Positions 34,656-37,025 of a stretch of DNA of 63,453 nucleotides are shown here, in pieces. A model generated the notes under the pieces. That model did no database searches and had not been told where the DNA came from. It saw only the letters and a program-made list of their open reading frames with translations. A program made the translations under genes and the position numbers. Position 1 is the stretch's first letter. Every line of letters starts with the position of its first letter. This DNA comes from Firmicutes bacterium M10-2. GTDB lineage: Bacteria; Bacillota_I; Bacilli_A; Erysipelotrichales; Erysipelotrichaceae. The stretch covers positions 53,933 to 117,385 of the forward strand of contig KE159699.1 in assembly GCA_000403415.2 (NCBI GenBank), written 5' to 3'.

Positions 34656-35027
34656 ATGAACAAGCTAACAAAAAGGGAAAGCGACATCATGGAAGTGTTG
34701 TGGAAAAACGAAAGGGATATGTCGGCAAATGATATTTTGCAGGCATCGGAAGGAATGAGCATTTATACGATCCAGCAAGTTCTTCAAAGATTGCTTGCTT
34801 ACGGATTTATCGAAGTGGCAAGTATTGGGAAAAATAAAAAGTCTTTGATGAGATTGTATCGCCCGGCTGTTTCGGAAATGCTGTATTATTCTTCTTTCAT
34901 GAGCTCGAAAACAACAAGTGAGCTGGCCGTGAATTTTATCGAGGAAAGCGAAGATCTCGAGATTTTGAAACAGCTTGAGGATCTGATTAAAAGAAAGGAA
35001 AAAGAATTGAAAGGGCGCGGCGAATAA
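34656..35027 (+). CDS. BlaI/MecI-family repressor
   Basis: Winged-helix repressor of 123 residues. The N-terminal part (LTKRESDIMEVLWKN) is the hallmark of the BlaI/MecI/CopY family, followed by the recognition region SIYTIQQVLQRLLAYGFIEV. The C-terminal third is a helical dimer domain (EESEDLEILKQLEDLIKRKEKEL). Repression ends when the partner membrane protease is triggered and the repressor is cleaved. The stop shares a base with the start of the M56 protease gene. Confidence 0.92.
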   Translation: MNKLTKRESDIMEVLWKNERDMSANDILQASEGMSIYTIQQVLQRLLAYGFIEVASIGKNKKSLMRLYRPAVSEMLYYSSFMSSKTTSELAVNFIEESEDLEILKQLEDLIKRKEKELKGRGE

Positions 35028-36133
35028 TGACTTTTTCTTTATCGTCGTTGTTCAACACTTTACTGGTTTCCGGTGTATTGATTTTTTTGCTTAATTTAGT
35101 TTTGATTCATAAAAAATTGTATTTGCTGTTTCGTGTTGATTTTTTATGCATGCTGGTTTGCATGGTCGTCTTGCACCTATGCCTACCGTTTGAGTTTTTC
35201 TTTACGAAGTCACTTCGTTCCAGGTATTTGATGACATATATTCAGGATTTTATTCTGCTTGAAATTTACGGATATCCTTTATATCAGATCTTATTCCTTA
35301 TTTGGGGTATCGGAATTGTGATCTATCTTGTTAAATATATACGAAAGATTCTTTGGATCAACCGATTTTATAAAAAGATCATTCAAAACGCGCAGTGCTT
35401 TTCAATCGAAGACTTGCTTGAAAAAACAATCGATTCAAACGCGAATGTATATGTTTCGAAACTGGTCAGTTCACCAATGGTTCTTGGATTTCACAAAAGT
35501 ATTCTTTTGCCTGATATCGAATTTGATCAAAGTGAATTGGAAAACATTTTGTATCATGAATTGCAGCATATAAAAAATCATGATATTTTGATCAAACATA
35601 TGCTCAACCTCCTTTCGATCGTTTATTGGTGGTTTCCTCCAATGAAAAAGTTAGCGAAGAATATCGGACTTATTTTGGAAATTCGGGTCGATTCGAAAGT
35701 AGTAGATTTTTCAGATAAGGAAAAGCTGTTCGGCTATACCCACACCTTAATCGATGTACAGAAAAAGCTGACAATGCTATCGATCCCGAACTGGAAAAAA
35801 AATGCGGCTTGTTTGATCGATGACCAGATCAGCGTATTAGAATATCGGATCAATTACTTGTTAAAAGAAGAGATCAAGAGAAAAACAAAATTCATTATCG
35901 TGATCTTTCTTGTCTGCTTGCCTTTTTTAAGCAACTCGATTATGCTGGAGCCTTATTATTACGACAATATGATGGAAAAAGGATATGGATATACGACCGA
36001 ATATATTATCGAAAACTGTGAATTGATCCATCATAAAGATGGTACATATGGTTTGCTGATGAACGGAAAAGAAGGAAGCTTGATCGATCCCAGTGGATTT
36101 ATCGCGCAAGGAATCAAGGTGAAGGAGGAATGA
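35027..36133 (+). CDS. M56-family membrane metalloprotease (BlaR1-like, no sensor domain)
   Basis: Membrane protease of 368 residues. Helices lie at about 11-27, 37-53, 85-103 and 290-305. The zinc motif is HELQH at 177-181 (YHELQHIKNHD). Unlike BlaR1/MecR1 there is no penicillin-binding sensor domain, only about 60 residues after the last helix. It should cleave the coupled BlaI repressor. Its stop TGA lies in GGAATGA, which was the stop/start overlap with a third gene before a HEARO element inserted there. Confidence 0.88.
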   Translation: MTFSLSSLFNTLLVSGVLIFLLNLVLIHKKLYLLFRVDFLCMLVCMVVLHLCLPFEFFFTKSLRSRYLMTYIQDFILLEIYGYPLYQILFLIWGIGIVIYLVKYIRKILWINRFYKKIIQNAQCFSIEDLLEKTIDSNANVYVSKLVSSPMVLGFHKSILLPDIEFDQSELENILYHELQHIKNHDILIKHMLNLLSIVYWWFPPMKKLAKNIGLILEIRVDSKVVDFSDKEKLFGYTHTLIDVQKKLTMLSIPNWKKNAACLIDDQISVLEYRINYLLKEEIKRKTKFIIVIFLVCLPFLSNSIMLEPYYYDNMMEKGYGYTTEYIIENCELIHHKDGTYGLLMNGKEGSLIDPSGFIAQGIKVKEE

Positions 36134-36446
36134 GAGTGTCAATCACCCATACTCTAAAGAGTAATGGGCTTGCAAAAGTCCATAATTGACTAGCCTAAGC
36201 CTTAACGGGCTACGTTATGTAAGAATAGCGGAATGATACTTATCAACCGTAAATAGTTACCGGTGAGTATACAGCCTAGCTCACTGCTCTAAGGACTGTC
36301 GCTAAACCGATCTGAGGGGTAGGATCCGTGCGTCAGCCAAAGACTTCGTCTTAAAACCTTACATAACATTGGCGAAGGCTACTTACAGTCTATGTTATTC
36401 CATAATGCAGACTGTGTTATAATTTTATTATCAAGAAAGGAGTGCC
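36134..36446 (+). ncRNA. HEARO / omega RNA
   Basis: Structured RNA in the place where IscB guide RNAs lie, directly upstream of iscB. Visible pairings: GTCAAT (36138-36143) with ATTGAC (36185-36190); hairpin CCCATACTCT / AGAGT-ATGGG (36146-36168); a perfect 10-bp long-range stem GTTATGTAAG (36214-36223) / CTTACATAAC (36358-36367) enclosing an AAGAC-TTC-GTCTT hairpin; and ACAGTCT / AGACTGT (36385-36415) near the end. In the family the guide is copied from the left flank, here the 3' end of the M56 gene. Confidence 0.8.
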
Positions 36447-36737
36447 ATTCGAATAGTATATGTATTGGATCAATCAGGACAGCCGCTTATGCCAACCAAA
36501 CATGGTATACGGAAACGTAATCAGGCTGAATACGTTGTACACAGATACCGGCTATTTGATAAAGTACAATATCAAAATAACGAATATTTCATATTTGGAA
36601 GAAGAAAGACAGGATATTTTGACATGCGTACATTAACAGGTGTAAAAGTAAAGAATGGCAGTATAAGCTGCAAAAAACTCAAGTTATTGGAAAAATCCAA
36701 AAAATACCTGACAGAAACAAGATTACAAACAACATAA
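36447..36737 (+). pseudogene. iscB: Internally deleted iscB (PLMP motif fused to C-terminal domain)
   Basis: Frame of 96 residues. It opens with IRIVYVLDQSGQPLMPT, the RRXRR/PLMP start of IscB, then jumps to the IscB C-terminal region (RKRNQA, HRYRLFDKV, FIFGRRKTGYFDMR, KKLKLLE). The RuvC, bridge-helix and HNH parts, roughly 380 residues, are missing, so no cleavage is possible. AAAGGAG (36436-36442) is followed by ATT at the position of the usual ATG. Either ATT is used or the start was lost. The remaining part could still bind the RNA or the target-flanking site. Confidence 0.8.
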
Positions 36738-36812
36738 CAAAAATATTAAAGAAAGGAGAAGACCACTCCTACCATATCCTAAAGCATATGGTTTTCCGTG
36801 GTTAAAATTATT

Positions 36813-37025
36813 ATGAAAAAACTGATGATATCCGTATTGTGTGGCATAATGCTTGTGTTATGTCCGATGAATTGCCAGATCGAAGCGAAGGCACCGGAAG
36901 ATACGTCCGTACAGCCGATGAGCGATCATATCGAGTGGGTTTATCAAAACTTTGACGGCGTCATTTACAAGCGATTATACAATTTCACCACTCAGGAATG
37001 GGTCGGACGCTGGATCCGAGCCTAG
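36813..37025 (+). CDS. Small secreted peptide, cut off from its ribosome site
   Basis: Protein of 70 residues: signal peptide (KKLMISVLCGIMLVLCPMNC, cleavage near EAKA) and a mature peptide of about 43 residues with YQNFDGVIYKRLYNFTTQEW and WVGRWIRA, a tryptophan/aromatic pattern seen in small secreted Bacillota proteins. No Shine-Dalgarno lies before the ATG (GTTAAAATTATT). The AAGGAGG that would have served it stands at 36123-36129, before the HEARO element. It was probably the third gene of the blaI-M56 operon. Confidence 0.65.
   Translation: MKKLMISVLCGIMLVLCPMNCQIEAKAPEDTSVQPMSDHIEWVYQNFDGVIYKRLYNFTTQEWVGRWIRA

Follow-up and report, generated by a model that had tools for sequence, protein, structure and literature searches.

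A probably decaying, non-autonomous IscB/HEARO element that has lost its nuclease core and retained its RNA and ends in Firmicutes bacterium M10-2

The stretch of DNA analyzed here (63,453 nt, hereafter the window) carries an IscB/HEARO element, designated W, in which a complete RNA is followed by a shortened iscB frame and a right-end hairpin. W lies directly before a gene for a small signal-peptide-like protein. This gene follows a pair of penicillinase-repressor-like and BlaR1 M56-like genes (34656-37025 for the whole group). The BlaR1-like and peptide genes also adjoin in another genome of the same genus (G002), and the two are possibly parts of one regulatory unit. The features of the locus, all on the + strand and numbered as in the window, are as follows.

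36118..36137, +: host flank 5' of the HEARO, the would-be 20-nt guide of the W omega RNA by its position
36122..36128, +: native Shine-Dalgarno (SD) sequence AAGGAGG of the downstream peptide gene, now parted from its ATG and contiguous with it in the G002 empty site
36138..36812, +: whole IscB/HEARO element W, 675 bp, with ends placed by aligning copies A, B, C, W and E (described below) and by the G002 empty site
36138..36386, +: complete HEARO (omega) RNA of W (RF02033, 127.1 bits)
36436..36442, +: SD sequence AAAGGAG of iscB, read from the sequence
36453..36737, +: remnant iscB frame without a start codon, 94 codons plus TAA, residues 1-15 fused in frame to 338-416
36453..36455, +: mutated iscB start codon, ATA through G>A at 36455, where copies A, B, C and D have ATG
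36460..36636, +: 58-aa frame opened by a newly arisen out-of-frame ATG, an unrelated reading of the same DNA, from copy comparison
36492..36497, +: deletion junction, a 6-bp microhomology CCAACC, with 966 bp (322 codons) lost
36752..36758, +: SD-like AAAGGAG that closely precedes the right-end hairpin, read from the sequence
36761..36803, +: right-end hairpin of W, predicted fold
36813..37025, +: signal-peptide-like gene (70 aa) with its ATG directly against the element; orthologue in G002

The HEARO RNA and right-end hairpin proposed in the first-pass annotation, which was made from the sequence without database searches, were both recovered. The RNA matches RF02033 well above the gathering score of 83 (E 5.8e-26), and the right end folds at -15.5 kcal/mol (z -2.2) over positions 36740-36830. 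As in other HEARO/IscB elements, this hairpin adjoins an ATGA that resembles a target-adjacent motif. Copy alignment and the empty site moved the limits of the element from the 36130-36816 given originally to those listed above. W has kept its omega RNA and both ends intact; a substitution at 36337, read by eye off the RF02033 alignment, opens one stem pair. A 20-nt guide has been described for IsrB (PMC9581776).

The host genome (2.41 Mb in 22 contigs) contains five HEAROs, namely W and copies A-D. Copies A, B and C have full-length iscB genes, with open frames of 426-440 aa that contain RRXRR. The copy B protein matches an HNH profile besides RRXRR, retains the RuvC and HNH motifs as read by eye, and finds OgeuIscB (7xht, E 5e-45) among solved IscB structures. 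In copy D, iscB is cut after about 64 residues, and a sixth remnant, E, retains the iscB C-terminus and the right end but no more than some 50 nt of HEARO. Remnant E (L027, G000:C16:145893-146078) is a second, independent deletion derivative, located directly 5' of the ATG of a 417-aa ORF. The gene downstream of copy A (L023) codes for a beta-lactamase-like protein (PF13354). An intact Y1 transposase gene, beside a TnpB-like gene identified by eye, is present at G000:C12:572510-572857 (L062), and a broken second Y1 copy lies at C1:292418.

With three full-length iscB copies in the genome, the origin of W can be read directly. W equals copy B minus 966 bp between two CCAACC repeats, a single in-frame deletion; it shares both ends with the full copies and differs from them internally, so the first-pass proposal of a non-autonomous derivative that keeps its RNA and ends, with helper proteins elsewhere, holds up against the sibling copies. 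The loss of the nuclease core, which had likewise been proposed, is evident from this comparison: residues 16-337 of the 416-aa protein are gone, including most of PLMP, RuvC, the bridge helix and HNH, and the usual arrangement of an iscB with PLMP, RuvC and HNH downstream of the HEARO is not found in W. The PLMP domain keeps the first 15 of about 59 residues; in IsrB this domain (residues 1-59) forms a sheet of four strands in contact with RuvC, the TI domain and the RNA (PMC9581776).

The open frame of W reads IVYVLDQSGQPLMPT followed by KHGIRKRNQAEYVVHRYRLFDKV and ends at TAA 36735-36737. Profile searches with this short frame alone (Pfam, NCBIfam and PDB sequences) gave nothing above threshold; Pfam RRXRR aligned with residues 1-21 only, at 15.1 bits against a cut-off of 25. 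Its assignment to IscB is certain because of the siblings in the same genome, rather than from profiles alone, as two intact 426-aa open frames match it at 94-95% identity in their C-terminus. Matches to I-OnuI (E 0.25 and worse) were attributed to chance. The fusion of the N- and C-terminal parts of IscB noted in the first-pass annotation is therefore real, but the frame has no start codon and includes 15 PLMP residues.

Between W and copies A-D there are 10-12 differences in the first 364 positions, against 0-3 among those copies themselves, indicating that W is an older or decaying copy. Two substitutions affect the beginning of the iscB frame. In addition to the change of ATG to ATA, C>T at 36461 creates the out-of-frame ATG at 36460. 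The next in-frame start is a TTG at 36465, 22 nt beyond the iscB SD, and no usable start codon is present for the fused frame. Because ATG has become ATA, we infer that what is left of the frame is a pseudogene that most likely undergoes no translation. AUA can initiate translation at a very low level. Judging from the sequence, the mini-protein is probably not made, and the protein remnant most likely does nothing.

The insertion site could be defined from an empty site in G002. Here, a BlaR1-like gene (58% identity) is followed by ...GGTGAAGGAGGAATGAAGAG and, without interruption, ATGAAAAAA, the start of the 70-aa peptide orthologue. It follows that W sits exactly before the ATG, without target duplication, and that it was inserted between the native SD and the ATG of the peptide gene. 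ATGAA adjoins all five readable right ends in the host genome, each ATG opening an ORF of 70-417 aa; of the 360 ATGAA occurrences in the window, 23 (6%) fall at a predicted gene start. The 2009 HEARO paper reportedly gave ATGA/GTGA as the target. The ATGAA at the right end of W fits an NTGA-type target-adjacent motif, and such a motif was reported for DtIsrB (PMC9581776).

The short form appears to be confined to this locus. The fused frame is present in one copy in the host genome and is absent from all other genomes among the 315 of the order searched. Several identical short copies, which the first-pass annotation would have taken as support for active mobilization, do not exist, nor is the multiplication seen that is typical of MITEs and not required of a deletion derivative. 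Deletion derivatives E, in the same genome, and L074, L075, L087 and L089, in relatives, have break points different from that of W. L089 also joins an N-terminus to a C-terminus, but has stop codons following the N-terminal part, and none of the short iscB C-terminal open frames in the relatives G005, a genome of the same family, and G157 begins with PLMP. The exact W junction sequence has no match in viral contigs and the element has none in phages; against plasmids there were only 65-bp matches, in a Finegoldia iscB and a Cetobacterium hypothetical gene.

We considered what the short frame may represent. The suggestion made originally, that it encodes a functional mini-IscB which binds omega RNA or target-flanking DNA without cutting, would agree with a frame that stays in phase across the deletion to its natural stop and with a kept C-terminal part that corresponds roughly, by position, to the TAM-interacting domain. 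However, the start codon is gone and an out-of-frame ATG has been gained, PLMP ends at residue 15, the parts that hold the RNA-DNA duplex (RuvC and the bridge helix) are missing, and the fused form is unique among the 315 genomes. Such a protein is very improbable. Some evidence does run against a pseudogene: the deletion keeps the frame, which happens one time in three by chance, there is no internal stop, and the polarizable substitutions on the W branch in the kept part (2 synonymous and 1 non-synonymous) are few enough to leave room for selection on the protein. Still less credence is due to the idea that faulty assembly produced the deletion or the ATA codon. The genome is a draft of 22 contigs, and an N run within the iscB C-terminus of copy A in the same assembly means that repeats did trouble the assembler; against this, substitutions private to W flank the junction on both sides, W has flanks of its own within a 117-kb contig, and a plain microhomology marks the junction. 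As the mini-IscB candidate is most likely a pseudogene, laboratory effort on a presumed RNA-guided binder without cutting activity can be saved.

We thus conclude that W is very likely a decaying, non-autonomous IscB/HEARO copy that lost its nuclease core by internal deletion and kept its RNA and ends. In the proposed sequence of events, an ancestral full copy would have inserted between the SD and ATG of the small secreted-peptide gene, at the site defined by the empty site of the sister species. As the copy comparison shows, 966 bp of iscB were lost between the two CCAACC repeats, and the iscB start ATG changed to ATA, before or after the deletion. W may still make an omega RNA with its left flank as guide. 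Since the omega RNA and ends are intact, the intact IscB of A, B or C could use this RNA in trans and might cut alleles free of the element. A Y1 transposase encoded elsewhere, with C12:572510 as a candidate, might move W.

Several known systems resemble W. With HEARO/IscB (OMEGA) elements (RF02033 and PF14239), W has in common the left-end omega RNA, downstream iscB, right-end hairpin and insertion beside ATGAA, but its iscB has neither core nor start codon. MITE-like deletion derivatives of bacterial insertion sequences likewise keep both ends around an internal deletion at a short repeat; W differs in being a single copy with no sign of amplification. Like W, the compact IscB relatives IsrB and IshB fall short of the length of IscB and have PLMP or C-terminal parts in common. 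Yet IsrB keeps RuvC and IshB keeps HNH, whereas W has neither of these, nor a start codon. Standalone omega RNAs able to function with IscB in trans are cited in PMC9581776; W resembles them in being a complete omega RNA without a functional adjoining iscB, with intact IscB encoded elsewhere in the genome. In the case of W, a 94-codon iscB remnant persists, and the function in trans is putative. As a clean omega-RNA-only remnant beside intact IscB copies, W is useful for testing the use of omega RNAs in trans.

A further question concerns the right end, which could act as the ribosome-binding site of the downstream gene, with AAAGGAG as the SD and the hairpin bringing it near the ATG. This possibility is compatible with W being a decayed element, and we regard it as quite plausible, though somewhat short of probable. 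The native SD is now about 685 nt from the ATG of the 70-aa gene, and W carries its own SD-like sequence at -58, followed by the hairpin. An SD-like sequence precedes the hairpin at 32 of 49 junctions. The junction ATG opens an ORF of at least 100 aa at 26 of these 32 and at 5 of the 17 others (Fisher p 6e-4), in a count weakened by its inclusion of related copies and, outside G005, of junction ATGs chosen by eye. In G005, for which a fixed pattern served to locate most right ends, a long ORF begins at 6/6 junctions with GGAGG and at <=2/11 without it (p 0.002). In the control, an ORF of at least 100 aa begins at 27% of the window's ATGRA sites. A regrouping that admits SDs adjoining the ATG and genes of 60 aa, devised after the data had been seen, gave p 1e-5. 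Genes behind SD-bearing right ends include topA, rnpA, rplI (ribosomal protein L9), lgt, murB, rlmN and rapZ, and HEARO copies without a right-end SD tend to lie away from gene starts.

The correlation between an SD before the hairpin and insertion before a start codon suggests a portable ribosome-binding site, and the simplest reading of the junction survey, a sequence comparison, is that the downstream gene would use the SD of the element itself, with the hairpin as the bridge. Against a role of this kind stand the nature of the evidence, which is a correlation, and the distance from SD to ATG, which looping out of the hairpin would leave at about 15-20 nt. In full copies, translational coupling to iscB could take the place of this mechanism; in W, L087 and L089 it hardly could. 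We tentatively propose, at slightly less than an even chance, that many HEARO/IscB elements, W included, carry a portable, hairpin-bridged ribosome-binding site and can insert between SD and start codon without silencing even essential genes. If true, this role would be a reason for the retention of the right end in W. No earlier report of insertion before start codons or of an element-borne SD was found in the literature searched, a set outside which the original HEARO and IscB discovery papers fell. The survey offers a testable idea of how these elements might avoid harming a gene when they insert before it.

HEAROs directly 5' of gene starts, some of them of essential genes, and with an SD before the hairpin were observed at L087, L076, L074, L099, L166, L102 and L103 and in the window (36752-36812). 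One of them, L087 (G157, 461-813), is a complete miniature HEARO with almost no iscB, located directly before the ATG of topA.
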